Notes: generated from the letters alone by a model not told the origin. A stretch of DNA of 64,000 nucleotides from Pelagibacteraceae bacterium AG-325-C10 (GCA_003282975.1 QBYD01000004.1:1-64000); one strand, 5' to 3'. Counted from the first letter of the stretch, positions 1,664 through 50,640 are shown. Translations and numbers: made by a program.

Positions 1664-1693
1664 ATTATTTTACCCCTCTGTTTTTGTTAAGAC

Positions 1694-3163
1694 CTATGGT
1701 AGACAATCCAGATATGTATCTAGATCCCATTGAGTTGTTGCACCTAGAAATCTTTCCCACTCATCATTTTTATACCAATGAAAGACTTTGTACATTTCAT
1801 CTGGCATAGCTGATTTAATTACTTCATCCTCAGCTAAACGGTCAAGTGCTTGACCAAGACTTAAAGGTAATTTTTTAACTTCTTTACCGGCTGCTTGAGC
1901 CTCATACATGCTTCTAGATTCTGGTTTTCCTGGATCGATGTTGTTTGAAATCCCATCATCAAAACATTTTAACAATCCTGATCCCATTAGATATGGATTA
2001 TGCATCGAGTCAACTGAACGGTACTCAAATCTTCCAGGCGCTGATACTCTTAATCCACAAGTTCTATTTTGGTATCCCCAGTCGGCATAAACTGGTGCCC
2101 AGAAACCTGTATCCCATAATCTTCTGTAAGAGTTGACTGTTGAAGATCCAATTGCAGTTAAAGCACCAAGGTGTTTCATAACACCACCAATAGCTTTTAA
2201 ACCAACTTTACCAGGTAATTGAACATCCTTAGTATCTGGCATGAAAGTATTAGTTCCACCTTCTACATAAGTAAACACTTCATCCATGGCAGGTATAGAT
2301 TTGTGACTTAATTTATTCACTTTATCTTTTCCACCTTTCCATAAAGACATATTAGTATGACACCCACTTGCAGATACTCCCATAAATGGTTTTGTCATAA
2401 AACATGCAATTAGATTAAATTCTCTTGCAACTTGAGCACAAATTTGTCTGTAAGTTGATAATCTATCTGCATTTCTTAAAACATCATCATACATCCAGTT
2501 TAATTCTAATTGTCCTGGTGCATCTTCATGATCACCTTGAATCATATCTAGACCCATAGCTCTTGCGTATTTCATAACTTGCATAAAAACTGGTCTCAAA
2601 GACTCGAATTGATCTATATGATAACAATATGGTTTAGAAAAACCTTTTCCAGTAGGTGTACCATCTTCATTTTTAGTTAGCCACATCATCTCTGGTTCTG
2701 TACCAACTCTTAATTGATAACCATGTTTTTTCTTAAATTCTTGCGCATGTATTCTTAAATTTCCTCTACAATCTGATGTTAAATGAGCACCAGGATTGTC
2801 TCTTTCTTCTCTGTTTCTAAAACAAGTTACAAATACTCTTGCAACTTTTTTATCCCAGGGTAACTGACAAAAAGTTTCTGGATCAGGTATACCCACGAGT
2901 TCTTTTGCCTCAGGCCCGTAACCAATATAATTACCATGTCTATCTGTAAACAAGTTGGCAGTTGCTCCGTAAACTAATTGAAAACCTTTTTCACATGTTC
3001 TTTCCCAGTGATCAGTTGGAATTCCTTTTCCAACAACTCTGCCTGTGACAGATATGAATTGAAAAAAAATATACTCAATACCAAGTTCATTAATTTTAGC
3101 CCTTACTTGTTTAACTAATTTGGCTCTACCAGGCTGATTTACGTGTTTTTCTAGGTCAGTCAT
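1694..3163 (-). CDS. gmaS: gamma-glutamylmethylamide synthetase (glutamine synthetase-like)
   Basis: This is a 489-residue glutamine synthetase homologue of the GlnT/GmaS type, which ligates methylamine to glutamate using ATP. Catalytic-domain motifs seen are GTEPEMMWL, GQLELNW, SGCHTNMSLW and RFEYRSVDSMHNP. The track starts it at a TTG (3178), but that TTG lies in the ribosome site (TTGAGGGGGAATATAATG), so ATG 3163 (MTDLEKHVNQ) is the better start. It is the first gene of gmaS-mgsA-mgsB, and this context is what separates GmaS from an ordinary glutamine synthetase. A 122-base AT-rich gap separates it from the FAD oxidoreductase upstream. Confidence 0.9.
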   Translation of the reverse strand: MTDLEKHVNQPGRAKLVKQVRAKINELGIEYIFFQFISVTGRVVGKGIPTDHWERTCEKGFQLVYGATANLFTDRHGNYIGYGPEAKELVGIPDPETFCQLPWDKKVARVFVTCFRNREERDNPGAHLTSDCRGNLRIHAQEFKKKHGYQLRVGTEPEMMWLTKNEDGTPTGKGFSKPYCYHIDQFESLRPVFMQVMKYARAMGLDMIQGDHEDAPGQLELNWMYDDVLRNADRLSTYRQICAQVAREFNLIACFMTKPFMGVSASGCHTNMSLWKGGKDKVNKLSHKSIPAMDEVFTYVEGGTNTFMPDTKDVQLPGKVGLKAIGGVMKHLGALTAIGSSTVNSYRRLWDTGFWAPVYADWGYQNRTCGLRVSAPGRFEYRSVDSMHNPYLMGSGLLKCFDDGISNNIDPGKPESRSMYEAQAAGKEVKKLPLSLGQALDRLAEDEVIKSAMPDEMYKVFHWYKNDEWERFLGATTQWDLDTYLDCLP

Positions 3164-3285
3164 TATATTCCCCCTCAAGAATAAATTTTGTATTAGAGAA
3201 ACGTTAACTGAAAATCTAATTAGTGTCTAATTTTTGTTGACTATAATAATTATATATAATTTTTATAAGTATTAGCTTGGAAAAA

Positions 3286-4614
3286 TTAACTCCAAGGGAA
3301 AGGACTGTTGGATGTTGGGTGTAGTTCACCTCTCTCGTAACGGTTGAATCTAAAAGGTTTTAAAAGATCACTTTCAGTTCCTAGAATTTCTTTTGCAACA
3401 AGCTCACCAACACCAATCATTTTGTATCCATGGTTTGCGTCAGCAATCATATAAACGTTTTCTAAAAATCTATCAAAAATTGGAAAAGAGTCTGGTGTCA
3501 TACATCCAAGACCACCTGATGGACCTTTTCTATAAAGATCAGATTTTCCTTCAAATCTTTTTTGACAATGAGCCAAGGCTGAACACCACATATCATTAAA
3601 AGCTTCTGTAGTTTGAAATTCTGGAGACTCAATTCCATATGGATCTACATTTACTTGATCAAAATGTTTATCAACTATGTAAGGTGAAGTTCCACCTTGA
3701 ACACCTAGACCTTCAATATCAGGTTTATAATAAATTCCCCAAATTTTGTCAGTGATTAATTTTTTTGTTTTGTCGGAATATAATGGAGCTGTTGAGTCTA
3801 CATGAATAACTGGTGGCTGCTGTCCATTATTCATTTTTAAAAAGTCTGCATCAACACCAATCACACCTTCTTGTAACATCCAATATGTCCACATGTCGGT
3901 TGTGTGCATTTTACCATCTTTACCCTTAATGTTTGCAGTTTTTGGTAGCTCTAGCATATTCCAAAAATCTCTAGCCCATGGTCCTGCTCCTACTACAACT
4001 TGTTCACACTCTATTGTTCCTTTATCAGTTTCTACACCTGTAACAGCTTTACTGTTACTTCCTCTTTTAAATCCTTTAACTGTTACACCTTTCATTACTT
4101 GAACACCATTTGAAGTGGACTTATTTTCAAGAGCTTTAATTGAATCTTTGTTAAAAGCATAACCACCTTTTTTTTCATGAAGCACAGAAGTAATGCCTTG
4201 CGCTTGCCAGTCATCAAACATACCCTTCATATAATTCGTACAATCTTTTTCACCTTCTATAAATTCAGAGTCGTAACCAATAGCTTTTTGTTGTTCATAG
4301 ATAGTTGCAACATCTTCATGCATTACTTCTGGGGAGATTTGTAAATATCCTACAGCATTATATTTAAACGCTTTGGGATCACTTTCCCAAACAGAAACTG
4401 AATGAGCCATTAGCTCTCTCATAGCTGGCTGAAAATAATTATTTCTTACCACACCACATGCAATACCACTCGCACCTGCCGCGATATCTTTTTTTTCTAA
4501 GACAACAATGTCACCTGGATTTTTATATGTTTCAGAAAGCTTCCAAGCAGTGCTTAAACCGTGAATTCCACCACCAATAATTACTACTTTAGCTTTATTT
4601 GGTAAAGTTGACAT
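3286..4614 (-). CDS. FAD-dependent oxidoreductase, DadA/sarcosine oxidase beta-like
   Basis: The protein has about 442 residues of the DAO (D-amino-acid oxidase) superfamily. The N-terminal dinucleotide motif reads KVVIIGGGIHGLSTAW and is followed by VVLEKKDIAAGASGIACG. The C-terminal FAD segment contains NVYMIADANHGYKMIGVGE. It resembles the beta subunit of sarcosine oxidase or N-methylglutamate dehydrogenase, but no small, alpha or gamma subunits are next to it. The ORF track begins it at TTG 4632; ATG 4614 (MSTLPNKAK) fits the fold better, although neither start has a strong ribosome site. Its place upstream of gmaS suggests a secondary amine or amino acid such as N-methylglutamate as substrate, which is inference. 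Confidence 0.72.
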   Translation of the reverse strand: MSTLPNKAKVVIIGGGIHGLSTAWKLSETYKNPGDIVVLEKKDIAAGASGIACGVVRNNYFQPAMRELMAHSVSVWESDPKAFKYNAVGYLQISPEVMHEDVATIYEQQKAIGYDSEFIEGEKDCTNYMKGMFDDWQAQGITSVLHEKKGGYAFNKDSIKALENKSTSNGVQVMKGVTVKGFKRGSNSKAVTGVETDKGTIECEQVVVGAGPWARDFWNMLELPKTANIKGKDGKMHTTDMWTYWMLQEGVIGVDADFLKMNNGQQPPVIHVDSTAPLYSDKTKKLITDKIWGIYYKPDIEGLGVQGGTSPYIVDKHFDQVNVDPYGIESPEFQTTEAFNDMWCSALAHCQKRFEGKSDLYRKGPSGGLGCMTPDSFPIFDRFLENVYMIADANHGYKMIGVGELVAKEILGTESDLLKPFRFNRYERGELHPTSNSPFPWS

Positions 4615-4754
4615 TGAACTAATTATTAACAAAATGAATTTGTGATGAAAGTATTATTTATAGTTCTAAAATTTATATATATATTTAATACGAGTTAATT
4701 ATTCGTTTTAAATATCATTTTAATAAATATTAAATTAAGTTAATTTTAGAAATT

Positions 4755-16514: not shown

Positions 16515-17846
16515 TTATTTGTTTAAAAATGTTTTTAAAGAGTCATCCATAGCATTTCCCCAAGGTGTATGATGTACTGGAGCTACTGAACCAGTAACAG
16601 GAGAAGAAAATGATTTATTTCTATAAGTCATAATATCCTCAACTTTATGGTGCTCCCATTCTTTAAAATGTTTTCTAATTAATTCAAAATCAATTTTAGG
16701 ATAATCAGACATTGCATGAAGTTCTTTTGTATACTCAGTTTGAAAATCAATCATTTGATCAGGGTTCTCTAATTTCTCTTCCATTGATACCCATTTATTA
16801 ATATCATTTTCTACTTCTGAAGTATCTGGGATTTTAATTTTTTCCATTATAACGTCTCTTGCAAACCAAGCCTGACAATCAAACATATTAAATGTATGAA
16901 ATTGATCCTGCATACCAAGATATAAAAGTTTATGATTATTTTGCCACACTACACCTTTGTATAACATTGGTGGATACAATCTATTAGACGTTTGTAGTTT
17001 AAGTTCTTCTGATAAAAATGGAAAATGATGAAGATAACCAGTGCATAGTATGATTGCATCTGTCTCTTGTTCGTGACCATCTTTAAAAATTGCTTTACTT
17101 CCTTCAAGTCTATCAAGATGAAAAACTTCTTTCATACCCTTAGGCCATTTAAATCCCATAGGGTTATGTCGATAACCTATTGTTACACTTTTCGCACCGT
17201 ATTTATGACATTGAAGCGCTACATCTTCAGCAGAGTAACTACTTCCTAAAACCACAACATTCTTATCTCTAAATTCTTCTGCATCTCTAAAATCATGTGA
17301 ATGCATAATTCTTCCTGGAAATGATTTCATACCTTGATATTCAGGAATAAATGGGACTGAGAAATGACCTGTAGAAACTACCACATAATCAAAAATATCT
17401 TTTGATATTTTATCATTTTTCTTATCACGATAAGTAACCTCAAATTTTTGACCATCAAAATTTGTACCCATCACACAGTGATTAAATTTTACTTTATCTT
17501 TTAAATTTCCTTTAGAGACTCTACCCAATATATAATCATATAAAACGTCTCTTGGTGGAAAAGAGGGTATTGGTTTTCCAAAATGCTCATCAAATGAATA
17601 ATCAGCAAATTCCAAACATTCTTTTGGACCATTTGACCAAAGGTATCTATACATACTATTTGGAACAGGATCTCCATATTGATCTGAACCTGTTCTCCAA
17701 CTATAATTCCATAGACCACCCCAATCATCTTGTTTATCAAAACAAACGATTTCTGGTATTTTCTCACCTTTTTTCTCAGCTTGCTCAAACGATCTAAGCA
17801 TTGAAAGCCCACATGGACCTGCACCAATTATAGCTACTTTAGTCAT
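16515..17846 (-). CDS. tmm: trimethylamine monooxygenase (flavin-containing)
   Basis: 443 residues, the usual size of bacterial Tmm. The FAD motif GAGPCG lies at residues 8-13, FDKQDDWGGLWNYSWRTG follows, the FMO-type segment FPGRIMHSHDFRD is present, and the second nucleotide motif VVLGSSYSAEDVA binds NADPH. It oxidises trimethylamine to TMAO, which TmoXWV and Tdm nearby would handle. The gene converges on the tmo operon and is divergent from glpK (94-base shared upstream region). An indole- or sulfide-oxidising FMO is less likely given the context. Confidence 0.91.
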   Translation of the reverse strand: MTKVAIIGAGPCGLSMLRSFEQAEKKGEKIPEIVCFDKQDDWGGLWNYSWRTGSDQYGDPVPNSMYRYLWSNGPKECLEFADYSFDEHFGKPIPSFPPRDVLYDYILGRVSKGNLKDKVKFNHCVMGTNFDGQKFEVTYRDKKNDKISKDIFDYVVVSTGHFSVPFIPEYQGMKSFPGRIMHSHDFRDAEEFRDKNVVVLGSSYSAEDVALQCHKYGAKSVTIGYRHNPMGFKWPKGMKEVFHLDRLEGSKAIFKDGHEQETDAIILCTGYLHHFPFLSEELKLQTSNRLYPPMLYKGVVWQNNHKLLYLGMQDQFHTFNMFDCQAWFARDVIMEKIKIPDTSEVENDINKWVSMEEKLENPDQMIDFQTEYTKELHAMSDYPKIDFELIRKHFKEWEHHKVEDIMTYRNKSFSSPVTGSVAPVHHTPWGNAMDDSLKTFLNK

Positions 17847-24215: not shown

Positions 24216-25472
24216 ATGCAAAAATATTCAATTTTTAATCTGGTTAAAAACGCATTTGCCAATCATCAAAATTGGGATTTAGCCTGGAAGGATCCAACTC
24301 CAAAAAAAGAGTATGATGTTGTTATTATTGGCGGCGGTGGCCATGGTTTAGCTACAGCTTATTATCTAGCTAAGGAACATAACATTACCAATGTAGCAAT
24401 TATAGAAAAAGGCTGGATTGGTGGTGGAAATGTAGGAAGAAATACTACCATTATAAGATCAAACTATATGCACGACGATAATGCATTGTTTAGTGAGTTT
24501 GGAATGGATCTATGGCGAAAGATGAGTCAGGATTTAAATTACAACGTAATGTTTTCGCCAAGAGGAATTATCAATCTTGCTCATTCAGACGCCCAAATGA
24601 ATGTTTATGCAAGAAGAGGCAACTCTATGAGATTAAATGGTATTGATGCAGTTTTATTAAATAGAGAACAAGTAAGAGAAATAATTCCAATGGCAGACTT
24701 TTCAGAAAATGTTCGCTTCCCAATCTTCGGAGGTTTAATGCAACCAAGCGCTGGAACAGCAAGACATGATGCTGTTGCGTGGGGTTATGCTCGACAAGCA
24801 GATTCAATGGGAGTTGATATTATTCAAAATTGTGAAGTAATTGGTTTTGATATATCAGGTGGAAAAATAAATGGAGTTAGAACATCAAGAGGTGACATAA
24901 AAGCAAAAAAAATTGGTTTATGTGTTGCTGGTAGCACTAATGTTTTAGCTGAAAAATTAAATATGACATTACCAATTGAAACACATCTTTTACAAGCGTG
25001 TGTTTCGGAACCAGTTAAACCAGTTTTAGATGGTGTTGTTACCTTTGGTGCAGGACATTTTTATATTAGCCAATCAGACAAAGGTGAAATGGTAATGGGC
25101 GGTGATTTGGATGGTTATAATAGTTATGCTCAAAGAGGAAATTTACCGACATTGCAACATGTACTAACAGAAGGAATTGCGATGATGCCTTTTTTAAGCA
25201 AATTAAAAATGCTTAGAACTTGGGGTGGAATTATGGATATGTCAATGGATGGTTCGCCAATCATTGATAAAACTCATATTGAAGGATTATATTTAAATTG
25301 TGGTTGGTGTTATGGTGGCTTTAAAGCTACTCCAGCATCAGGTTGGACATTTGCACATACTATTGCACAAGATAGAGTTCATGAATTAAATTCTGGTTAT
25401 AGCCTTAATAGATTTAATACAGGTCATCTATTAGATGAAAAAGGTCTTGGCACAAAAACTTGGATTTCATAA
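24216..25472 (+). CDS. soxB: sarcosine oxidase beta subunit
   Basis: A 418-residue DAO-family flavoprotein, the usual length of the beta subunit of the four-part sarcosine oxidase. The FAD motif is VVIIGGGGHGLATAYYL. SAGTARHDAVAWGYARQ contains the His to which FMN is covalently linked in the family, and the C-terminus has LNCGWCYGGFKATPASGW. The order B-D-A-G with overlaps is diagnostic. N-methylglutamate dehydrogenase (mgdABCD) has the same architecture and cannot be excluded by sequence alone; fhs next door fits either reading because both use folate. Confidence 0.87.
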   Translation: MQKYSIFNLVKNAFANHQNWDLAWKDPTPKKEYDVVIIGGGGHGLATAYYLAKEHNITNVAIIEKGWIGGGNVGRNTTIIRSNYMHDDNALFSEFGMDLWRKMSQDLNYNVMFSPRGIINLAHSDAQMNVYARRGNSMRLNGIDAVLLNREQVREIIPMADFSENVRFPIFGGLMQPSAGTARHDAVAWGYARQADSMGVDIIQNCEVIGFDISGGKINGVRTSRGDIKAKKIGLCVAGSTNVLAEKLNMTLPIETHLLQACVSEPVKPVLDGVVTFGAGHFYISQSDKGEMVMGGDLDGYNSYAQRGNLPTLQHVLTEGIAMMPFLSKLKMLRTWGGIMDMSMDGSPIIDKTHIEGLYLNCGWCYGGFKATPASGWTFAHTIAQDRVHELNSGYSLNRFNTGHLLDEKGLGTKTWIS

Positions 25473-25745
25473 ATGCTCTATATTAATTGCCCACATTGCG
25501 GAATGAGATCACAAAATGAGTTTTCTTATGGGGGTGATGCAACTGTAAAAAGACCAGATTTAAACAAAGAAATATCAGATCAAGAATGGGATAACTTTGT
25601 TTACAATAGAAAAAGCTTGAGAGGAAAACATTGGGAATTATGGCAACATATATCAGGATGTAGACAGTGGATAAAAGTTGAAAGAGATACAGCCACTCAT
25701 GAAATTTTTATGACATTAAAAGCTAATGAGGAAATTTCTTTATGA
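25473..25745 (+). CDS. soxD: sarcosine oxidase delta subunit
   Basis: The 90-residue SoxD-family protein begins at the base after the soxB stop. It carries the zinc-site pattern NCPHCGMRSQNEF near the N-terminus and HISGCRQWIKVERDT further on, giving Cys, Cys, His and Cys ligands. The middle segment DQEWDNFVYNRKSLRGKHWELW is typical. It is a structural subunit of the oxidase. Its stop overlaps the soxA start (ATGA). Confidence 0.9.
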   Translation: MLYINCPHCGMRSQNEFSYGGDATVKRPDLNKEISDQEWDNFVYNRKSLRGKHWELWQHISGCRQWIKVERDTATHEIFMTLKANEEISL

Positions 25746-28738
25746 CACAAAGTTTTAGATTAAATGATGTTGGTCTTATTAATAGAGACAAAAAAATTTC
25801 ATTTAAATTTAATGGTGTAACTTATTATGGATATGAAGGAGATACTTTAGCTTCAGCTTTGATAGCTAATGGAGTTCATTTAGTTGGTAGAAGTTTTAAA
25901 TATCATAGACCAAGAGGATTTTTTGGAGCAGGAGTTGATGAACCATATGCGATTGTTCAATTATATAGAAATGGTGAGACTGAACCAAATATTAAGGCAA
26001 CAGAACAAGAGCTTTTTGAAGGTCTTGAAGCTAAAAGTGTAAATTGTTGGCCGAGTGTTAATTTTGATGTTGGGGCAATAAATAATTTTTTAAAAATATT
26101 TCTTCCAGCAGGATTTTATTACAAAACATTTATGTGGCCCAAAAGTTTTTGGTATAAAGTTTACGAACCATTTATCAGAAAAGCTGCAGGTTTAGGTGTT
26201 GCATCTACAAAACATGATAAGGAAAGATACGAACACAAATATGAATATTGTGACTTATTAATTGCAGGATCAGGACCATCTGGATTAGCAAGCGCTTATG
26301 CTGCTGCTAAAAATGGAGCAAGAGTTATTTTAGCAGAAGATAAATCTAGATTTGGAGGAACTTTACTAACTAGCGATGTAAATATTGGAAATCAAACAGG
26401 TAAAGAGTGGGCTGATGGAATTATTTCTGAGTTAAAAGAAATGCCAAATGTAACTGTAAAAAATAGATCACAAGTATTTGGTTATTATGATCATAATATG
26501 CTGGTGATGTCAGAAAGAATAAGTGATCACTTACCATCAACAAAAAAATTTCATCCTAAACAAAGGCTTTGGTACATTAGAGCAAAAGAGGTTTTAATCT
26601 CCTCTGGTTCAATAGAAAGACCATTAGTGTTTGGAAACAATGATACGCCAGGTGTAATGCTTTCATCTGCTGCAAAAGAATATCTTAAAGTTTATGGAGT
26701 GCTTGTCGGAAAAAAACCCCTAATTTTTACTAATAATGACAGTGGTTATGAGACTGCAATTGAATTAAAAAAAAATGGTGTTGATCCAATAATTTTAGAC
26801 ACAAGGAAAGATCCTCATTCAGAAATTATAGATGAAGCAAAAAATTTAGGAATAGAAATTAAATTTTCTTATGTAGTAGTGGCAGCACAGGGATACAAAA
26901 AAGTCAAGTCTGCTGATATATCTAAGATTTCAGATGACAAAGAGCAGCTTGGTACAATTGAAAATATTAAATGTGACTGCATTTGTGTTTCTGGTTTTTG
27001 GACTCCAACAATTCATTTAGCTTCTCAGTCGGGAAATAAAACTCAATTTAAAGAAGAAATTGATGCATTTATTCCAGGAGAGTCTAAACAAAACGAAAAA
27101 ACATTAGGTGCTGCTAATGGTATCTATACTTTAGATGAAACATTAAAAAGTTCTTTTGAGGTAGGTAATGAAATATCAAAAAAAATTACTAACAAAGAAA
27201 ATAAAGTATCTTTCCCAAATGTGGTTGAAAAGAAATCAACAGTTCACGATAAATTTTGGTGCGTTCCTTTACCAAAAGGGAAAAATTATAAAAGATTTTT
27301 AGATTTTCAAAATGATGTTGCAGTTTCAGATATAGAAATTGCTCTTAGAGAGGGGTATCGATCAATTGAACACGTAAAAAGATACACTACCCTTGGCATG
27401 GCAACAGACCAAGGCAAAACAAGTAACCTTAATGGTTTACAATTAGTTTCTAAAATAGAGAATAAAGTTGTTCCAGCAGTTGGACATACAACTTTTAGAC
27501 CGCCATATACACCCGTTTCTATTGGAGCAATTGTAGGAAGAGAAATTGGAAAACATTCTAAACCAACCAGAAAGTCACCAATGCACTTTTGGCATGAAAA
27601 AAATAATGCTGTTTTTGTTGATGCAGGTGTGTGGCTTAGACCAAGGTATTATAAACAGGGAAATGAAACTTTATTTGAAGGATCTAAGAGAGAAGCTAAA
27701 AATGTAAGAACAAATGTAGGTGTTTGTGATGTTACCACGCTAGGTAAAATAGATATCAAAGGACCAGATGCAGCAGAGTTGCTGAATAGGGTTTATACAA
27801 ATGCGTGGCTAAAATTGCCAGTAGGTAAGGCAAGATACGGCGTTATGTTAAGAGAAGATGGAATTGTTATGGATGATGGTACGACCACAAGAATTTCAGA
27901 AAATCATTATCATATGACAACTACTACTGCTCAAGCAGCTAATGTCCTTTCTCACTTAGAATATTATTTACAACTTGTATGGCCAGATTTAAACGTGAAT
28001 GTAGTTTCAAGCACAGAACAGTGGGCTGGTGCTGCAATTGCTGGACCCAAATCTAGAGACTTATTACAGAAATTATTTCCTAATTCAGATGTGTCTAATG
28101 AAGGATTGCCTTTTATGGGCTATATGGAAGGAGACTTATTTGGAGTAAAAGCGAGAATTTTTAGAATTTCATTTTCAGGTGAACTTGCATACGAGGTGAA
28201 CGTAGAATCCGATTATGGAAACTTTATGTGGGAAAAAATTATGGAAATTGGTGAAGAATTTCAAATCCAACCATATGGTACAGAGGCCTTATCTACACTT
28301 AGAATTGAAATGGGTCACGTTGCTGGATCAGAACTTGATGGAAGAACAATTCCTTATGATAATTCTCTTGAAGGATTATTAAGCAAAAAGAAAGATTTTA
28401 TTGGCAAAAGATCTTTAACAAGAGAGGCATTTACTGCAGAAGATAGACAAAAAGTGGTTGGTGTTGTTCCTTTAGATAAAAAAACGAGTATTCCAGAGGG
28501 GTCTCATTTAGTTAAAGACTCTAATGCTCCACTACCAAATCCTAAATTAGGTTATATCTCAGCGTCATGTTGGAGTGTTGAGCATGATAATCCATTTTCA
28601 TTAGCAATTCTTAAAAATGGAAAAAATATGATTGGGGAAAAACTGTATGTAATGTCACCACTTAAAAATAAAGTAATTCCAGTTGAAATAGTATCTTCGC
28701 ATTATGTTGATCCAAAAGGGGAGAGAGTAAGATCATGA
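25742..28738 (+). CDS. soxA: sarcosine oxidase alpha subunit
   Basis: A 998-residue multidomain protein. An N-terminal 2Fe-2S-like fold (FNGVTYYGYEGDTLASALIA) is followed by an NAD-binding region (LLIAGSGPSGLASAYAAAK; SSGSIERPLVFGNNDTPGVM) and, from about residue 600, a GcvT-like folate-binding domain (YGVMLREDGIVMDDGTTTRI; FRISFSGELAYEVNV). It uses tetrahydrofolate to catch the sarcosine methyl group as methylene-THF. It overlaps soxD and soxG by ATGA junctions. MgdC of N-methylglutamate dehydrogenase is the alternative. Confidence 0.88.
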   Translation: MTQSFRLNDVGLINRDKKISFKFNGVTYYGYEGDTLASALIANGVHLVGRSFKYHRPRGFFGAGVDEPYAIVQLYRNGETEPNIKATEQELFEGLEAKSVNCWPSVNFDVGAINNFLKIFLPAGFYYKTFMWPKSFWYKVYEPFIRKAAGLGVASTKHDKERYEHKYEYCDLLIAGSGPSGLASAYAAAKNGARVILAEDKSRFGGTLLTSDVNIGNQTGKEWADGIISELKEMPNVTVKNRSQVFGYYDHNMLVMSERISDHLPSTKKFHPKQRLWYIRAKEVLISSGSIERPLVFGNNDTPGVMLSSAAKEYLKVYGVLVGKKPLIFTNNDSGYETAIELKKNGVDPIILDTRKDPHSEIIDEAKNLGIEIKFSYVVVAAQGYKKVKSADISKISDDKEQLGTIENIKCDCICVSGFWTPTIHLASQSGNKTQFKEEIDAFIPGESKQNEKTLGAANGIYTLDETLKSSFEVGNEISKKITNKENKVSFPNVVEKKSTVHDKFWCVPLPKGKNYKRFLDFQNDVAVSDIEIALREGYRSIEHVKRYTTLGMATDQGKTSNLNGLQLVSKIENKVVPAVGHTTFRPPYTPVSIGAIVGREIGKHSKPTRKSPMHFWHEKNNAVFVDAGVWLRPRYYKQGNETLFEGSKREAKNVRTNVGVCDVTTLGKIDIKGPDAAELLNRVYTNAWLKLPVGKARYGVMLREDGIVMDDGTTTRISENHYHMTTTTAQAANVLSHLEYYLQLVWPDLNVNVVSSTEQWAGAAIAGPKSRDLLQKLFPNSDVSNEGLPFMGYMEGDLFGVKARIFRISFSGELAYEVNVESDYGNFMWEKIMEIGEEFQIQPYGTEALSTLRIEMGHVAGSELDGRTIPYDNSLEGLLSKKKDFIGKRSLTREAFTAEDRQKVVGVVPLDKKTSIPEGSHLVKDSNAPLPNPKLGYISASCWSVEHDNPFSLAILKNGKNMIGEKLYVMSPLKNKVIPVEIVSSHYVDPKGERVRS

Positions 28739-29319
28739 GCACAATATCAGCTTTAGCTAACGTTCATTCTACTGGTCAATTCGGAGATTGTGAAAATAAA
28801 AATGACAATCTTTTAAATATCTCTGAGATTAAAAATTTATTAATAGTTCAAATAGTTCAGTATAAAAATTCTTCAATTTCTTTTGAAAGTATTGATATTG
28901 ATGGTTTAAATTTGAAAGATGAACCCTTAAGCGTAGTAAACAACAATGAAACAAGAATTTTATGGAATGGCCCAAAAAATTGGTTTTTAATATCAACCAA
29001 AAAAGATTTATTAAACAATGTTTTAGAAGTATTTAAAGAAACAGACTTTGCTGTAACAGATTTGTCTCACTCAAGAGCTATAATTGAAATAGAAGGAGAA
29101 GAAGCCATAGAAGTTTTGAAGAAAGGATGTCCTTTTAATTTTAATACTTTAGAAAAAAATAATTCAATAAACTCTACCTATAACGGAATAGCATTTACAG
29201 TTGATAAGTTGGATAACAATCCTAATAAAATAAGGTTATTTACTCTTCGAAGTTTTGGAGAGTCTTTATATCATTCTATTACAGATGCTTCTTTGGAATT
29301 TGGATATAAATCTTTATGA
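28735..29319 (+). CDS. soxG: sarcosine oxidase gamma subunit
   Basis: A 194-residue SoxG-family protein whose ATG overlaps the soxA stop. Recognisable segments are WNGPKNWFLIS, VTDLSHSRAIIEIEGEEA and LKKGCPFN, followed by a C-terminal stretch ending SFGESLYHSITDASLEFG, which match the GcvT-like fold of gamma subunits. It completes the BDAG set. Its stop lies 13 bases from the convergent EamA gene, with no obvious terminator between. Confidence 0.85.
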   Translation: MSTISALANVHSTGQFGDCENKNDNLLNISEIKNLLIVQIVQYKNSSISFESIDIDGLNLKDEPLSVVNNNETRILWNGPKNWFLISTKKDLLNNVLEVFKETDFAVTDLSHSRAIIEIEGEEAIEVLKKGCPFNFNTLEKNNSINSTYNGIAFTVDKLDNNPNKIRLFTLRSFGESLYHSITDASLEFGYKSL

Positions 29320-34319: not shown

Positions 34320-35285
34320 ATGAATTTTAAAATAGATAATCTACAATATTGTAATTGGTCTAGAGAGATTTTTGAATTTAATAGAGAAGCAAATCTAGAC
34401 GCAGTACATGTAACCATTGTATATCATGAAGATTATGATGAACTAATTAGTGAAACTAGAAAATGGGAAAAACTCTTTTCAGAAAACTCAGATTTAATTT
34501 TTTTAGGCAATGATTTTAAAGATATCGAAAAAGCAAACGTTGAAAAAAAAACAGCAATTTTTTTTGGGTTTCAAAATTGTTCACCAATTGAAGATGATAT
34601 TAGTTTAGTAGAAAAAGTACATTCTTTGGGATGCAGATTTATGCAGCTAACTTATAATAATCAGTCACTTCTCGCAACTGGCTGTTATGAAAAAATTGAT
34701 AGTGGTGTAACTAATTTTGGTCGTGAAGTTATAAAAGAAATGAATAGAGTTGGTATTGTTGTTGATATGTCTCATTCAGCAGAGAAAAGTACATTTGATG
34801 CAATAGAATTAAGTGAAAAACCAATAGCCATTACTCATGCTAATCCATCTTTTTGGCACGCTGCTAAAAGAAACAAATCTAATGATCTTTTAAAAACATT
34901 AAGCAAAAGTGGTGGTATGCTAGGTTTGTCTTTATATCCACATCATTTAAAAGAAAATACCAATTGTACAATAGAAAGTTTTTGCGAGATGGTTGCAAGA
35001 ACAGCAGAAATTATGGATATAAAAAATATTGGTATTGGATCAGATCTTTGTTTAAATCAACCTGATACAGTTGTTGAATGGATGAGAAATGGTACCTGGT
35101 CTAAAAACAAAAATTATGGAGAAGGATCTAAGAATAAACCTGGATTCCCAAAACAACCAGAATGGTTTGAGGATGCTAGAGGATTTAAAAATATTGAAAA
35201 TGGTCTTAAAAAAACAGGGTTTTCAGATAGTGAGACACAAGGAATACTTGGAAATAATTGGTACAATTTTTATAAGTCAATTTAA
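34320..35285 (+). CDS. M19 (renal) dipeptidase homologue with degenerate metal site
   Basis: A 321-residue TIM-barrel protein clearly related to M19 dipeptidases: IVVDMSHSAEKSTFDAIE, PIAITHANPSFWHAAKRN, LGLSLYPHH and IGIGSDLCLN keep the later His, His and Asp positions. However, the N-terminal His-x-Asp ligand pair is missing (the start reads KIDNLQYCNWSREIF) and the bridging Glu position appears as Gln in FFGFQNCSPI. One of the two zinc sites is therefore probably lost. No signal peptide. It leads an operon with three unknown genes (2-base gaps), suggesting a hydrolase or lyase on a non-peptide substrate, or a binding role. Confidence 0.75.
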   Translation: MNFKIDNLQYCNWSREIFEFNREANLDAVHVTIVYHEDYDELISETRKWEKLFSENSDLIFLGNDFKDIEKANVEKKTAIFFGFQNCSPIEDDISLVEKVHSLGCRFMQLTYNNQSLLATGCYEKIDSGVTNFGREVIKEMNRVGIVVDMSHSAEKSTFDAIELSEKPIAITHANPSFWHAAKRNKSNDLLKTLSKSGGMLGLSLYPHHLKENTNCTIESFCEMVARTAEIMDIKNIGIGSDLCLNQPDTVVEWMRNGTWSKNKNYGEGSKNKPGFPKQPEWFEDARGFKNIENGLKKTGFSDSETQGILGNNWYNFYKSI

Positions 35286-35287
35286 TT

Positions 35288-36952
35288 ATGAAAGTTGAAT
35301 TAAGAGACCCAAACACAATAATGAAATTATCTAGATTAGGATCATTTCATCAATCAAAATTATCTTTTTTAAGAAGTTTTTTAAGTGAATTCAAAGATTG
35401 GGATTACAATAGAGATTTATTTAATTTAGATAAAGATGGTTATGGAGAAGCAATATATTCATTTAAAAAAAAAGATAGAGTTTATTCATTAGTTTGTTTT
35501 GCCAATAAGATTGAAGATGAAGAAAGATCCGATAGAGTAATAGCTACTAAGTGGGATGCTGCTTTTACGCTTTATGATGGTGTACCCAGTAAAGATGATA
35601 TTAAAAGATTAAAAAACGAAGTCCCTAAACAAGAAATAGGTAGACTAACGTTTAAAGAGTTAACTTTATCAAGAGCGAATAAATCTGTTAGAGTTTTTAA
35701 TCATGTTGTAAAAAATTTAAGTGAAGGTAAACAACCTGATTTAGACTTATTGTCAAAAGTTGGTTATTTATACAGAACTACAGCAGTTTATGGATCTGGA
35801 AAATTTGGTTTAGCAGATAGATTTCGGATTAAAAATAGAGAGGAAATCAATGGTCCTTTTAGATTAGAAATGATGTTAGTTTATTTAGTAAGACAATTTA
35901 CGTTTGATCAGGTAAACCATGTTGCTCATAATATAAATCCTAAAACAGCAGTAAAACTAAATAATCAAATTTGTAAAAATTTAGGTATTGGAAACTCCAC
36001 TGGTCTTGGTATGGCTCCTTTTATAGTTAATCACCCAACATTATTAAATAATTGGATTTTAAGTAGAGAAACAGCATTAAAAAAGATTAGGGAAATTAAA
36101 ATTGTTAAAGATCAAGACAGTGAACTTTTTAAAGATTGTTTAAAGAAATCATTAAAAAATATTACTAGCTGGAATACAGACAGTGAATATCAACAGAATA
36201 AAATTAGATTATTATTAAGAGATGTTAAAAAATTTATAAATCATGTTGAAAATGATTTTGATTTTCAGTCTGAGTTTCCATTTAATCAGATATATTTGTG
36301 GTTAGAGCAGAATTCATGTGAGGAGTGTATAGAATATGTAGTTTCTATAATGATGGAGCCTTATAATGATATAACTGGGCCTTTGGTTAGCAATATGAGC
36401 TCTGAAGAAGAGAAGTATTTTAATATTCCAACTAATCGAACAGTACAAGAATTACTAGAAATTATAAAAACTAGATATCCAAATATTTTGGACATAAATT
36501 TTGATCAAAAAGAAAATCATCAAAATTTCTGGTTTATATCAAAAAATAAAGAAGAACCTAGGATGGCTGACAGGTTTGAAGAACATGGATCTGAATTAGA
36601 ACAACCTCTAGCTATAGCAAGGGATATAAAAAAACTTTATGAGGAATTACTTTCTTTAAAAAATGACTCAATAACAATTGCTCAATTTTTATCATTAAAC
36701 CCAAATTTAAGACACGTTGTTAGAAGAGCTTTTATAATAGAAAAATTTCCATATTCTGAGATACAAGATAATACAATTGGTAAAAGCATTGTTCCTATTG
36801 ATATGCTTAGACTTAAATTATCTTTTTTTGGTGCGTTAAAATTTGACCCAAGATCAGATAAATGGCTAAGAATTTGTATGTTTCAAGGCGCTCCACTACC
36901 AAATGAATTAAAAAACTATGACGAGCAATGGGTTTATAAAGCTAATAATTAA
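35288..36952 (+). CDS. large conserved-looking protein of unknown function
   Basis: I do not recognise a family in this 554-residue soluble protein. It has no signal peptide or membrane segment. Notable parts are SKVGYLYRTTAVYGSGKFGLADRFR, a region rich in small and charged residues (about 155-185) that could bind a phosphate or acidic group; FDQVNHVAHNINPKTAVKLN; a CEECIEYVV segment around 345; and EEPRMADRFEEHGSELEQPL near 430. The length and even codon use argue for a real enzyme. It sits 2 bases after the M19 homologue and 2 bases before the DUF3726-like gene. Confidence 0.75.
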   Translation: MKVELRDPNTIMKLSRLGSFHQSKLSFLRSFLSEFKDWDYNRDLFNLDKDGYGEAIYSFKKKDRVYSLVCFANKIEDEERSDRVIATKWDAAFTLYDGVPSKDDIKRLKNEVPKQEIGRLTFKELTLSRANKSVRVFNHVVKNLSEGKQPDLDLLSKVGYLYRTTAVYGSGKFGLADRFRIKNREEINGPFRLEMMLVYLVRQFTFDQVNHVAHNINPKTAVKLNNQICKNLGIGNSTGLGMAPFIVNHPTLLNNWILSRETALKKIREIKIVKDQDSELFKDCLKKSLKNITSWNTDSEYQQNKIRLLLRDVKKFINHVENDFDFQSEFPFNQIYLWLEQNSCEECIEYVVSIMMEPYNDITGPLVSNMSSEEEKYFNIPTNRTVQELLEIIKTRYPNILDINFDQKENHQNFWFISKNKEEPRMADRFEEHGSELEQPLAIARDIKKLYEELLSLKNDSITIAQFLSLNPNLRHVVRRAFIIEKFPYSEIQDNTIGKSIVPIDMLRLKLSFFGALKFDPRSDKWLRICMFQGAPLPNELKNYDEQWVYKANN

Positions 36953-36954
36953 TA

Positions 36955-37563
36955 ATGAAATCTTTAAGTGAAATTGAAACTGCAGTTAAAAGAGCTAGTA
37001 GAGCAGTAGGTTTTTCCTGGGGAGTTTCTGAAGAAGTTGGAAAGTCTATAAGATTATTAGAGTTATTTGGGTTGGCAGGAATACAAAATTTAAATCAGTA
37101 CTACAAAGAAAGAGAAATTAAAAAATTTGAAAATTTAAATTCAATCAGTAAGACAAATTTTGCTAAAAAAGCTTTCTGTCCAATTACCCTTGGTGTTAGT
37201 TTTTTAGATCAAATTAAGATAATAGAGAATTTTGAGACGATACACTTTAAAAATATTGCATATCCAGTAATATTTTTGTCATTTTTAAGTAGAGCATCTG
37301 AAATAGGTGGAAAAAAAATATATGTTAAATTTGATCAATATGAAATTTTACTAAATTTGAATGTAAATATTTTCTCGAATGGATTTAATAAAGATTTTAG
37401 CAAACATTCAAATAATATAGAGGTAAAATTTTTAGATAACCATGATAATTTTACAGATACAGAGTGGAATAGTTTATACAAATTAGCTGAAAAAACATTT
37501 GTAGAGGAAAGTGATAGTTTGAAACAAAGTGGAGCAGGAGCGGGCCTTACAGATAATGACTAA
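36955..37563 (+). CDS. DUF3726-like protein
   Basis: A 202-residue protein that I assign tentatively to DUF3726 from its opening (MKSLSEIETAVKRASRAVGFSWG, then SEEVGKSIRLLELFGLAGIQNL). It has no clear catalytic motif. The C-terminal WNSLYKLAEKTFVEESDSLKQSGAGAGLTDND ends in a glycine-rich tail. Such proteins have no known function. Its stop lies inside the next gene's first codons (8-base overlap), so the two are translationally coupled, and both follow the 554-residue protein. Confidence 0.7.
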   Translation: MKSLSEIETAVKRASRAVGFSWGVSEEVGKSIRLLELFGLAGIQNLNQYYKEREIKKFENLNSISKTNFAKKAFCPITLGVSFLDQIKIIENFETIHFKNIAYPVIFLSFLSRASEIGGKKIYVKFDQYEILLNLNVNIFSNGFNKDFSKHSNNIEVKFLDNHDNFTDTEWNSLYKLAEKTFVEESDSLKQSGAGAGLTDND

Positions 37564-37723
37564 CAAATCAGAAAATAGTTATGATGAGGAAATTATTAAA
37601 GAACTAGATAATGTTTGCGAGGAATGCAAAAAAGAAGATGAGAGTGTGTCTCAAAATTTAATTTTAACTAGTTATAAACTTTGTTCGTCTTGTAGAGTAT
37701 CTAAAACTATTTTTCCAATCTAA
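37556..37723 (+). CDS. 55-residue microprotein with two CxxC pairs
   Basis: The track lists a longer frame from 37529, but ATG 37556 (MTNKSENSYDEEI) is the probable start because it overlaps the DUF3726 gene by 8 bases, as coupled genes do. It has an acidic first half and two Cys pairs, CEEC and CSSC, 24 residues apart, which suits a zinc ribbon or a small redox protein. Its stop TAA interlocks with the stop of the convergent minus-strand gene. It probably serves as a partner of the upstream proteins. Confidence 0.65.
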   Translation: MTNKSENSYDEEIIKELDNVCEECKKEDESVSQNLILTSYKLCSSCRVSKTIFPI

Positions 37724-38265
37724 CTAATCTGGCTAACAGGCAACATATTCATTCTACTCATTACAAAAGAGATAGATAAGAATGCTATAATTAAAAATGA
37801 TAAAAAAACTATACCAAAAGATTTTATGTTAGATTTTAAGCCTAATACTTGCTTTGTAGAAATAATTAATCCTGCAAAAATCCAAAATTGTGTCAGAAAA
37901 ATAATTGGTATCATCATATTGGGTGTTACTGCGAAAAATCTAAGTAAACCAGGTGCATGAGCGAACCCAACTGCTGTTAGAACTTTTTTAAAAGGAACCT
38001 TTGCTTTTTTGTCTGGAAAAAGTTTAACACCAATCACATAAATAAAGATTGCCCAAACTAACCAAGTTAAAATTGATGTAAGTCCTGACATTGCAACTGC
38101 AGTTTTAATTACTGTGTTGGCGGCAACAGCACCTGCAATGCCATCTAAAATCATAATTAAACCAGCAAAATAAACTGAAGCTTCACCAAAATTTTTACTA
38201 TCTGAATATAAAGATTTATCTAACTTTATAGATTTAAAAACTATACTTAAAAATTCAGCAAACAT
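37720..38265 (-). CDS. Yip1-like integral membrane protein
   Basis: A 181-residue protein with about five membrane segments (for example YFAGLIMILDGIAGAVAA, LTWLVWAIFIYVIGVKLF, MMIPIIFLTQFWIFAGLII and SFGIVFLSFLIIAFLSISFV). The layout and a GFAHAPGLLRFFAV segment resemble Yip1-domain proteins of bacteria, whose role is unclear. Its start overlaps the stop of a 33-residue frame (TAATG). The 3' end overlaps the convergent CxxC microprotein gene by 4 bases. Confidence 0.68.
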   Translation of the reverse strand: MFAEFLSIVFKSIKLDKSLYSDSKNFGEASVYFAGLIMILDGIAGAVAANTVIKTAVAMSGLTSILTWLVWAIFIYVIGVKLFPDKKAKVPFKKVLTAVGFAHAPGLLRFFAVTPNMMIPIIFLTQFWIFAGLIISTKQVLGLKSNIKSFGIVFLSFLIIAFLSISFVMSRMNMLPVSQIS

Positions 38266-38408: not shown

Positions 38409-39767
38409 TTAGCCTTTTACAACTTCTCTTGTATTAGCGTTAAAAGACTCTTTGAATGGAATATCCACTACTACTGCATTAACAGGAGTTCCTGGTGTAT
38501 CAGAGTATTTTTCAGGCAGGTGAACTTTAAATTTAGTTCCTACCTTACCTTTTGGAAAACCATTTGCATTTAATGTTCCATCAAACGGTACATATCCCAT
38601 TGCTATGTTTTGTTTTTTTTCTGGGTGATACCAAGGAGAAGTGATAAATCCAACAGGATCTCCACCATTCTCTGGTGATACTAGCCAAAAATCAGGAGCG
38701 TACTCTTCAATAGGTTTTCCACCTAATTCAAGTCCAACTAATTGAAGCTTGTAAGGTTTTTTACCATCTTTAAGTTCAGCACCCATTTTTTCTAATGCAG
38801 CTTTACCTACATAGTCACCTTTTTTAGCCCATTCACCTTTTCCAGACAAAGAAACTTGATAACCTAAGTTACACTGAAAAGGATTATGTTGTTGATCCAT
38901 ATCTTGACCCCATGAAAGAATTCCTGCTTGAATTCTTCTATGGTGAGCAGGAGCAATAACCATTAGGCTATGTTTTTTACCTGCTTCAAGAACAGCATTC
39001 CACATATCTTCAGCGTATAAAGTCGAGTCTCTTAGATATATTTCATATCCAGCTTCTCCAGAGAAACCAGATTGAGAAATTACACAACTTCTTCCACCTA
39101 CTTTAACTTCCGCTAAACCATAGAAAGGCATATTATCAAAATCAACTTGATCTCCACAAAGGTCTTTCATTAAAGCTTTTGATTTTGGTCCTTGTATCTG
39201 TACAGGACTGACATCAATTTCTTCAATTGTACAATCAAATCTTCCATCAGCATTTACACCTTGAAGGTACATACCAATATCAGAGTCTGATAATGAAAAC
39301 CAAAATTCATCTTCAGCAATTCTAAGAAGGATTGGATCATTTAATACTCCTCCATAAGCATTACATAAAATTACATATCTTGCTCTCATTGGAGAAATTT
39401 TTGTTGCATCTCTTGTTATTACATAGTCTGTAAATTTTTCTGCATCCGGACCTTTAATTCTTATTTGTCTTTCAACAGCAACGTTCCACATAGTAACGTG
39501 ATTTACAATTGCATCATACTCAACCATTGCTCCACCATCTTCTGGTTTTACATATCCTCTTGGGTGATAAATACGATTGTAAACAGTTGCTCTCCAACAA
39601 CCTGCCTGCATTGATAAATGCCAATAGGGTGATTTTCTTACTCTTGTCGAGATAAGCATTTCAACTTTAGTTGGCCCACTTTGTCTTAAGTTATATGGTA
39701 CTGCACGATCTGATTGATCAACTGAAGTAACATGTTTTAGTTTAGTATAGTCAAATTCATTAGACAT
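38409..39767 (-). CDS. DmdA-like tetrahydrofolate-dependent demethylase (GcvT family)
   Basis: A 452-residue GcvT-family protein. It shares with DmdA the run VTMWNVAVERQIRIKGPDA, GGVLNDPILLRIAEDEFWFS, DVSPVQIQGPKSKALM and SGFSGEAGYEIYL. It is about 80 residues longer than DmdA, with a 40-residue N-terminal extension and a longer C-terminus, and the DmdA segment ERIEGGLLSYGNDM is RRIQAGILSWGQDM here. It should move a methyl group to tetrahydrofolate. DMSP, a methoxylated aromatic (LigM-type) or another methyl donor could be the substrate. An 8-base overlap joins it to methylene-THF reductase upstream. Confidence 0.75.
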   Translation of the reverse strand: MSNEFDYTKLKHVTSVDQSDRAVPYNLRQSGPTKVEMLISTRVRKSPYWHLSMQAGCWRATVYNRIYHPRGYVKPEDGGAMVEYDAIVNHVTMWNVAVERQIRIKGPDAEKFTDYVITRDATKISPMRARYVILCNAYGGVLNDPILLRIAEDEFWFSLSDSDIGMYLQGVNADGRFDCTIEEIDVSPVQIQGPKSKALMKDLCGDQVDFDNMPFYGLAEVKVGGRSCVISQSGFSGEAGYEIYLRDSTLYAEDMWNAVLEAGKKHSLMVIAPAHHRRIQAGILSWGQDMDQQHNPFQCNLGYQVSLSGKGEWAKKGDYVGKAALEKMGAELKDGKKPYKLQLVGLELGGKPIEEYAPDFWLVSPENGGDPVGFITSPWYHPEKKQNIAMGYVPFDGTLNANGFPKGKVGTKFKVHLPEKYSDTPGTPVNAVVVDIPFKESFNANTREVVKG

Positions 39768-40503
39768 AACTATTCTCCTTCAACCACTTGTTTGTTTCCT
39801 TCAAGCCGCCGAATGTATAAATGTGGAAGTTATCAGTATGCGATTTAACTTTCCCAATTAAATCATTAGGGTCTTTAGGTTTTAATAAATCTAACGCCTT
39901 ACTAAAATTAGATTTAAGAAAATTTAAGGAATTTTTTGCTCCAACAATATTAGCAAACTTTATTAAGCTTGTTATTTTTAGAGGTCCAGTAATTCCAACA
40001 TGCACTGGTACGCTTTGTTTAGAAATAAAATCTATGATAGGCTGAGGGTCTAATAACCACTGAGTTACTATATAATCAGCATAAGGCTTTTTATCTATCA
40101 TAGCTTTGTCTAAATCGGTATTGGATATGTCAGGACTTCCCTCGGGATGTCCAGCAATTCCTATTTTCATATTTTCAAAATAACCTGTTTCTAAAAGTTG
40201 AAATGAACTATCAAATTTTCCCATTGGTTCTCTACCACCACCAATAATTAATGCTTGTTTTACTCCACCGTCTTTACATCTTGAAACGTAATCTTTTAGC
40301 TCAGAATCGTTTTCAATTGATCTTGCGGGAAAATGAGGCACAGGATTAAAACCTTTTTTTACAAGTTCAATAGATTGATCTGAAGTCTCTTTATAGTCTC
40401 CACCAGGTAGCATTGTGACGTAAACATCCTTAACAGGAGGTAACGTTTCAAGGTCAGTTTTAGGACCAATTTCTAGTGAAAAATTCATTTTTTTCTCGAT
40501 CAT
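39760..40503 (-). CDS. metF: methylenetetrahydrofolate reductase-like protein
   Basis: A 247-residue MTHFR-family TIM barrel, shorter than E. coli MetF (about 296). Segments KKGFNPVPHFPARSIENDSEL, QALIIGGGREP, IGIAGHPEGSPDI and LDPQPIIDFI follow the folate and FAD site pattern. Paired by overlap with the GcvT-type demethylase, it probably oxidises the 5-methyl-THF formed there, or supplies methyl-THF to methionine synthesis. The start is uncertain: ATG 40503 or ATG 40488, the latter with GAG-rich sequence before it. Confidence 0.78.
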   Translation of the reverse strand: MIEKKMNFSLEIGPKTDLETLPPVKDVYVTMLPGGDYKETSDQSIELVKKGFNPVPHFPARSIENDSELKDYVSRCKDGGVKQALIIGGGREPMGKFDSSFQLLETGYFENMKIGIAGHPEGSPDISNTDLDKAMIDKKPYADYIVTQWLLDPQPIIDFISKQSVPVHVGITGPLKITSLIKFANIVGAKNSLNFLKSNFSKALDLLKPKDPNDLIGKVKSHTDNFHIYTFGGLKETNKWLKENSYV

Positions 40504-49266: not shown

Positions 49267-50640
49267 ATGAATAATATTATAAATGAAAAAAAAGCATGTT
49301 GTGGTCCTGGGTATGCCAGCCCAACCGAAGCAATAAGAGCACCAAGTGAAAAACTTTTATATACAATAGCTATTTACACGGGAACTGGAATTCAAAAACC
49401 AGATTATCTTGCAACTATTGATGTTGATCCAGACAGTCCCACATATTCAAAAGTTATCCATCGACTTGAAATGCCAGGTATAGGAGATGAATTACATCAT
49501 ATGGGGTGGAATGCTTGTTCTTCATGTCATGGTGATGAAGGTATGAGTAGAAAATATCTTTTAGTTCCAGGTGTAAGATCTAATAATATTCATGTAATTG
49601 ATACTGCAACAGACCCATTTGCACCAAGAATTCATAAAATTATTGAAGGTGCAGAAATTAAATCTAAAACTAATTTATCAGGTCCTCATACAGTTCACTG
49701 TTTAGGCTCTGAAATAATTATTTCTTTTTTGGGTAATGCAAGAGGAGAAGCACCAGGTGGATATTTACATCTAAACAAAGATTTTGAAATCGTTGGGAGA
49801 TGGGAAAATTCTATGGGAGATATACCATTTAGTTACGATTTTTGGTATCAGCCACGTCATAATGTGATGGTAAGTTCAGAGTGGGCAGCGCCAAATACAT
49901 TTATGCCAGGTTTTGATTTAGAAGAAGTCGGTCATTTAAAATATGGACGTAGATTACATATCTGGGATTTTAAAAAGAAAGAGCCAGTTGAAACAATGTA
50001 TCTAGGAGAAGACGGTTTAATACCTTTGGAAGTTAAATTTATGCACAACCCTGATAGTAGTCATGGTTTTTGTGGAGCAGCCCTAAGCGCAAATGTAATT
50101 CATTTTTGGAAATCAAAAGAAGGAAAATGGGAATGGGAAAAAATCATAGATATAGAAAACGAGCCACATCCAGATTGGCCAATCCCAGTACCTGGAGTTA
50201 TGTCGGCCATCCTTGTATCAATGGATGATAAATATCTTTATCTCAACAACTGGCTACATGGAGATATGAGACAGTATGATATTTCAGATCCCCATAACCC
50301 AAAGTTAACCGGCCAAGTATGGATGGGTGGTCTTTTAGGTAAAGCACCCGTTGTTAATGGTGTGAAGATTGCTGGTGGTCCACAAATGTATCAGTTATCG
50401 TTAGATGGTAAACGTATGTATGTCACAACGTCATTGTTTTCTACTTGGGACAATCAATTCTATCCTGAAATACGTACACAAGGTGGAGCTATGATAATGA
50501 TAGATTGTGATATTGAAAATGGCGGCATGAAAATTAATAAAGATTTTATAGTTGATTTTGGTAAAGAACCAAACGGTCCAAGCAGGTGTCACGAAAGTAG
50601 GTACCCAGGTGGAGATTGTACAAGCGATATTTGGCTTTAA
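49267..50640 (+). CDS. mtoX: SBP56 / methanethiol oxidase
   Basis: A 457-residue selenium-binding protein 56 family member. Hallmarks are CCGPGYASPTEAIRAP, PDYLATIDVDPDSPTYSKVIHRL, MGWNACSSCHGDEG and SGPHTVHCLGSE, all close to the SELENBP1/MtoX pattern with its Cys-Ser-Ser-Cys and His metal residues. It oxidises methanethiol to formaldehyde, sulfide and peroxide. Unlike many bacterial MtoX it shows no N-terminal signal peptide, so it is probably cytosolic. Methanethiol would come from DMSP demethylation. It overlaps the ferredoxin start (TAATG). Confidence 0.88.
   Translation: MNNIINEKKACCGPGYASPTEAIRAPSEKLLYTIAIYTGTGIQKPDYLATIDVDPDSPTYSKVIHRLEMPGIGDELHHMGWNACSSCHGDEGMSRKYLLVPGVRSNNIHVIDTATDPFAPRIHKIIEGAEIKSKTNLSGPHTVHCLGSEIIISFLGNARGEAPGGYLHLNKDFEIVGRWENSMGDIPFSYDFWYQPRHNVMVSSEWAAPNTFMPGFDLEEVGHLKYGRRLHIWDFKKKEPVETMYLGEDGLIPLEVKFMHNPDSSHGFCGAALSANVIHFWKSKEGKWEWEKIIDIENEPHPDWPIPVPGVMSAILVSMDDKYLYLNNWLHGDMRQYDISDPHNPKLTGQVWMGGLLGKAPVVNGVKIAGGPQMYQLSLDGKRMYVTTSLFSTWDNQFYPEIRTQGGAMIMIDCDIENGGMKINKDFIVDFGKEPNGPSRCHESRYPGGDCTSDIWL

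Follow-up and report, generated by a model that had tools for sequence, protein, structure and literature searches.

Three consecutive genes in a 64,000-nucleotide stretch of DNA from Pelagibacteraceae bacterium AG-325-C10 (GCA_003282975.1 QBYD01000004.1:1-64000; hereafter the window) form a conserved cassette, encoding an M19-like hydrolase, an unnamed protein of 554 residues (P554) and a DUF3726 protein; the system is these three genes plus one neighbour, which encodes a CxxC microprotein. On comparative sequence evidence, we put at about 0.5 the probability that the three genes are the irreducible core of a pathway that yields N-methylglutamate from a cyclic, N-methylated zwitterion bearing a 2-carboxylate, with homarine (N-methylpicolinate) as the likeliest substrate. 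The window genome belongs to the Pelagibacterales (SAR11), with 1.09 Mb of sequence and a completeness of 80%, and its nearest named relatives among the matches listed are Pelagibacteraceae single-cell genomes. A large share of the small nitrogenous osmolytes in the ocean is taken up by SAR11 and the roseobacters, and ocean and soil bacteria appear to use this three-gene enzyme set, which includes two families of unknown function, on an N-methylated ring compound.

The original prediction for this locus described four open reading frames (ORFs) separated by 2 bases, 2 bases and an 8-base overlap, and both their coordinates and their spacing are confirmed (Table 1). It also assigned all four to one function, which holds for the M19-like, P554 and DUF3726 genes and fails for the microprotein, a gene that is kept where the cassette is missing (discussed below). 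Scattering of the first three genes among relatives was looked for and not found, with the M19 gene adjoining the P554 gene in 56 of the 60 non-distant loci that have enough flanking sequence. P554 is present in 39 of 289 genomes of the class, in 29 of 399 genomes of a phylum sample, and at no fewer than 582 loci in species genomes; most full-length members elsewhere in the class are about 40-59% identical to the window protein. DUF3726 is encoded in 32 of the 289 class genomes, adjoins P554 in every one and never occurs without it, and the two are fused in Mesorhizobium sp. 131-2-1; seven genomes with P554, mostly as fragments or divergent copies, have no DUF3726 match. DUF3726 is probably an obligate partner of P554. 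The suggestion of a catabolic pathway or multi-protein enzyme gains support from this linkage and from the operons in which the cassette is found elsewhere; those operons, the fusion, the predicted fold of DUF3726 and the link to mgdABCD had no part in the earlier picture.

In other Proteobacteria, a LysR regulator gene is followed by genes for an aldehyde dehydrogenase, the M19-like protein, P554 and DUF3726, and then by either an imine reductase of the Ldh family or RidA. The operon spans the Alpha-, Beta- and Gammaproteobacteria and is common in soil bacteria too; the core is widespread in Alphaproteobacteria, and ORF layouts show an equivalent operon with RidA in Vibrio and Caballeronia. 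Annotated plasmids of Phaeobacter, Sulfitobacter, Mesorhizobium, Aminobacter, Shinella, Tritonibacter, Aliiroseovarius and Alisedimentitalea carry it, most of them together with BCCT or glycine-betaine transporters. Plasmids of Sinorhizobium and Aminobacter carry a distant set, about 25% identical, that is accompanied by genes for IclR, M19 and polyamine-type ATP-binding cassette (ABC) transporters.

The accessory enzymes of these operons point to the product side of a pathway. At five loci from the Alpha-, Beta- and Gammaproteobacteria, the aldehyde dehydrogenase is nearest to the alpha-ketoglutarate-semialdehyde and 2,5-dioxovalerate dehydrogenases. The best PDB match of the reductase profile is 1wtj, a delta1-piperideine-2-carboxylate reductase (E 7e-92). 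The related enzyme DpkA natively reduces piperideine-2-carboxylate, and also converts 2-oxo acids and methylamine to N-methyl amino acids (PMC6775277). Counted from 7 kb upstream of P554 to 4 kb downstream of it, a range fixed after a first table had been seen, the 60 loci contain the reductase in 27 cases, RidA in 12 and both in none (Fisher p 3e-4), and the 33 loci with the aldehyde dehydrogenase in range contain them in 16, 12 and none (p 2e-5), in tests that ignore shared descent. At two loci with the reductase (L130 and L163), RidA lies just beyond this range, in another gene group. Since one and the same imine or enamine can be either reduced or hydrolysed, the alternation suggests that the pathway passes through an imine intermediate.

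A further link is to N-methylglutamate dehydrogenase. The window encodes a probable mgdABCD-like enzyme at 24216-29319, 5 kb from the cassette, an assignment made by sequence comparison. Its beta subunit is 63% identical to the mgs-linked copy of Aminobacter aminovorans and 57% identical to the second copy in its own genome; against the solved sarcosine oxidase beta subunit it scores 478 bits, compared with 588 bits for that second copy. This greater closeness to mgs-linked copies than to sarcosine oxidase is a result for the beta subunit. The mgdC-like subunit has an orthologue of 66-94% identity in relatives, and a second paralogue is 46-51% identical. Sarcosine oxidase had been considered for these soxBDAG-like genes and was dropped, because the beta subunit groups with the mgs-linked copy and the second copy fits sarcosine oxidase better. 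Genes of the mgdABCD type also adjoin the operon in Phaeobacter (its second copy), Aliiroseovarius, Shinella and two other genomes (G125, G050), and in all of these except G050 an AraC/GlxA-type regulator gene lies next to them. In Ruegeria pomeroyi, tmaR adjoins mgdABCD in a like manner (PMC13390433). Phaeobacter inhibens DSM 17395 carries its second operon copy and the mgdABCD-like genes side by side on plasmid pPGA1_262 (L164, L214), where dimethylsulfoniopropionate demethylation genes lie near both operon copies.

Table 1. Genes of the cassette, its neighbour and the mgdABCD-like cluster in the window
Feature	Position	Strand	Basis or remark
M19-like hydrolase, depleted metal site, 321 aa	34320-35285	+	PF01244 E 9e-70
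P554, 554 aa, unnamed protein family	35288-36952	+	no Pfam match at E<=1
DUF3726 protein, 202 aa	36955-37563	+	PF12525 E 4e-19
CxxC microprotein, 55 aa; judged a neighbour outside the system	37556-37723	+	two CxxC pairs
mgdA-like (beta) subunit, annotated as soxB type; probable downstream step	24216-25472	+	63% to A. aminovorans mgs-linked subunit
mgdB-like (delta) subunit, 90 aa	25473-25745	+	position between beta and alpha subunit genes only
mgdC-like (alpha) subunit	25742-28738	+	TIGR01372 soxA family
mgdD-like (gamma) subunit	28735-29319	+	position after alpha subunit gene; no Pfam match

Taken together, the five-carbon semialdehyde, the N-methyl imine and N-methylglutamate suggest an N-methylated ring with a 2-carboxylate, and from this we infer a substrate, a reaction for each core protein and an order of steps. 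A complex of P554 and DUF3726 would dearomatise and open the N-methylpyridinium ring, which in the case of homarine would give an N-formyl or enamide semialdehyde. The M19-like protein, taken as a hydrolase because of its family, would cleave the opened N-acyl or enamide product, yielding an imine, with the extra ring carbon of homarine leaving as formate. The alpha-ketoglutarate-semialdehyde-type dehydrogenase would oxidise the five-carbon semialdehyde to N-methyl-2-iminoglutarate. Either the DpkA-like reductase would convert this imine to N-methylglutamate, or RidA would hydrolyse it. MgdABCD would then convert N-methylglutamate to glutamate.

Several observations weigh against this scheme. 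The ring-opening step is given to P554 and DUF3726 by elimination, and no oxygenase, flavoprotein or cofactor is recognisable in the core, which leaves the chemistry of that step unexplained. The operon aldehyde dehydrogenase falls below the cut-offs of the curated NCBIfam models. Mgd also serves methylamine use, and its association with the cassette within the window's genus is weak: the window-type mgd occurs in 18 of 23 genomes with the cassette and in 6 of 14 without it (p 0.03, with linkage and incomplete genomes as confounders). In addition, a search of nine Pelagibacterales genomes for the operon aldehyde dehydrogenase gave a best match of just 37% identity, and a search of the window's genus for the operon reductase gave best matches of 30-35%, present with or without the cassette.

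The alternative that survives best is a pathway of the same kind with another substrate, such as N-methylproline or stachydrine, N-methylpipecolate or trigonelline, whose breakdown would converge on the same five-carbon semialdehyde and imine level. The operon evidence (the type of aldehyde dehydrogenase, the handling of an imine and Mgd) pins the product side better than the substrate, glycine-betaine-type transporters are not substrate specific, and the frequency of the operon in soil bacteria also fits this alternative. However, an imine-level intermediate suits an aromatic or unsaturated ring better than a saturated one of the stachydrine type, and in trigonelline the carboxylate is attached at C3, whereas the substrates of the reductase family are 2-carboxylates. 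Homarine with Mgd is also the sole link found in the literature. Another substrate is a serious but unlikely possibility.

PMC13390433 gives Mgd a role in the catabolism of homarine, with reference to a 2026 article (Ferrer-Gonzalez et al. 2026, Nat Microbiol 11:1531). Mgd is thus a point in common with the operon described here, and the title of that article fits the broad spread of the operon in environmental bacteria. The operon may well be the same as, or part of, the published homarine pathway. A homarine operon is reportedly named homABCDER, with five genes and a regulator; the LysR operon has the same number of genes, which is a lead rather than a test. No literature on DUF3726 or on the operon by name was found.

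Two other known systems resemble the proposed homarine pathway in part. The N-methylglutamate pathway (gmaS, mgsABC, mgdABCD) has the last step, from N-methylglutamate to glutamate, in common with it; that pathway makes N-methylglutamate from methylamine, whereas here it would come from ring catabolism. In trigonelline degradation (TgnABCDE), an N-methylpyridinium carboxylate is opened by a flavin monooxygenase system, followed by an aldehyde dehydrogenase and then hydrolysis. The logic is similar, but flavin monooxygenase genes of that kind were not recognised in the operons examined here. P554, an unnamed family found in hundreds of species genomes and tied to the N-methylglutamate route, would provide both a marker and an enzyme to test in studies of how N-methylated ring compounds, for example homarine from algae, are turned over. 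DUF3726, hitherto without a function, gains a partner and a proposed pathway.

The SAR11 version of the cassette requires separate consideration. As neither the dedicated aldehyde dehydrogenase nor the dedicated reductase was found in the window genome, other enzymes would have to supply their steps, and the organism seems to have a reduced version of the pathway; its genome is incomplete, and its relatives agree. The three SAR11 genes could instead have drifted to a different job, the two dedicated enzymes not being kept. The low identities given above (37% for the aldehyde dehydrogenase and about 33% for a reductase present irrespective of the cassette) favour such drift, as does the sister family, in which the genes beside the cassette encode another enzyme, similar to betaine aldehyde dehydrogenase, and an ABC transporter of the polyamine type. 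Nevertheless, SAR11 P554 and M19 retain the invariant residues of their families, one genus of the sister family (g3) retains the reductase next to the cassette and, at one locus (L204), the mgdABCD-like genes as well, and in a streamlined lineage enzymes may be common to several pathways. Drift is considered improbable. Near the cassette and the polyamine-type ABC transporter, two sister-family loci encode a small Asp/Asn beta-hydroxylase-like protein (L204, 5012-5641; L205, 6829-7428), and the second also has a type III glutamine synthetase near the cassette.

P554 has no Pfam (E<=1) or NCBIfam match, nothing usable in PDB sequence searches with either the single sequence or a profile, and no relative in a scan of IMG/VR; it is unrelated to the profiles of the operon reductase and of DUF3726. 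The original statement that it belongs to no nameable family stands, and no match to a well-known enzyme family emerged when one was sought. Invariant blocks lie near GYL-RTTAVYGSGKFG and GIGNSTGLGMAPF, and the invariant residues include one histidine (His249) and several glutamates; inspection by eye for a diiron or 2-His-1-carboxylate site gave no recognisable motif. An AlphaFold model made from SAR11 sequences only has a pLDDT of 73 and a pTM of 0.80, but is weak in the conserved loops. Foldseek with this model found no PDB relative at E<=0.001, and because of that weakness no new fold is claimed. At one locus (L159, 8550-11156), an 868-aa ORF contains a distant P554 match, and is possibly a fusion or a frame read-through.

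The window DUF3726 protein passes the PF12525 model with 68.8 bits, against a cut-off of 22.1. Its AlphaFold model (pLDDT 88) matches LDH2-type dehydrogenases in Foldseek with an E value of 2e-3 and a probability of 1.00, at a TM score of only 0.4-0.5. In a profile comparison, hhalign aligns 63 N-terminal columns of DUF3726 with the operon reductase, at an E value of 9e-5 and a probability of 59%. The SHG motif, which includes the catalytic histidine and is invariant in the operon reductases, is missing from the DUF3726 alignment. DUF3726 thus shows a possible likeness, in predicted fold and N-terminal profile, to a truncated form of the NAD(P)H dehydrogenases of the LDH2 type, such as ureidoglycolate dehydrogenase and DpkA, but it is shorter than these and lacks this motif. 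An AGAG-containing tail, disordered in the model, closes 30 of 40 DUF3726 sequences. These comparisons, in part of predicted structures, indicate that DUF3726 is probably a non-catalytic, LDH2-like partner of P554. A more tentative proposal, which we hold with some reserve, is that P554 and this partner belong to a previously undescribed class of enzyme that opens or dearomatises the ring of N-methylpyridinium carboxylates in concert with a metal-depleted M19 hydrolase, and that SAR11 has a minimal three-gene version.

The fourth gene is a resident SAR11 gene and an unrelated neighbour of the cassette. The original prediction counted the CxxC microprotein as a possible zinc ribbon or redox partner in a four-gene system, and the 8-base overlap with DUF3726 and its conservation at 75 of 80 SAR11 loci would be compatible with that role. 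However, three loci without the cassette (L198, L199 and L200) have the microprotein in an unchanged position, flanked by purE and a Yip1-like gene, and in another genome (G030) microprotein and cassette are on different contigs. A sister family (f2) has the cassette and no microprotein. Retention at a site without the cassette, together with absence from f2, indicates that the microprotein is not part of the system, and a four-gene system is very improbable. The window ORF at 37720-38265, which is Yip1-like in our reading, has no Pfam match.

The M19-like protein passes PF01244 with 235.8 bits, against a cut-off of 26, and shares its fold family with renal dipeptidase (1itq) and the PA5396-like protein (2i5g). 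In an alignment with human renal dipeptidase, His198, His219 and Asp288 are retained as His152, His173 and Asp242, whereas the bridging Glu125 is replaced by Gln85 and His152 by Tyr112. His20-x-Asp22 becomes Leu8-x-Tyr10, a placement made by eye, as the region lies outside the computed alignment. Both the His-x-Asp and the bridging Glu of the dinuclear zinc site are absent, as had been noticed earlier from the sequence; relative to the M19 dipeptidases and 2i5g, three metal-ligand positions are counted as lost. Leu8, Gln85, Tyr112, His152, His173 and Asp242 do not vary among the 29 aligned members, and the set including Tyr10 is invariant or nearly so. The best PDB match, the solved Pseudomonas aeruginosa chain 2i5g, also has Leu and Gln at the equivalent positions. 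Invariant ligand changes in 29 members and in 2i5g argue for an established subfamily with a depleted metal site rather than a decayed gene, and support the earlier view that this is not an ordinary dipeptidase. That it is an ordinary metal dipeptidase with chance neighbours is scarcely credible, despite the strong family match, given those replacements and the linkage to P554.

On the minus strand of the window, at 38409-40503, a gene for a GcvT-like protein adjoins one for a short methylenetetrahydrofolate-reductase-like protein (just under the Pfam cut-off), a pair found beside the cassette in most SAR11 loci. Genes for methylated compounds abound in the window, which also encodes a trimethylamine monooxygenase (16515-17846, over its NCBIfam cut-off) and a methanethiol-oxidase-like protein (49267-50640, under its cut-off). 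Finally, minus-strand genes in a row at 719-4632 may represent a variant form of the gamma-glutamyl or N-methylglutamate route. They encode a class-II glutamine amidotransferase, a protein that resembles glutamine synthetase but scores below the type III cut-off, and a soxB-like flavoprotein.

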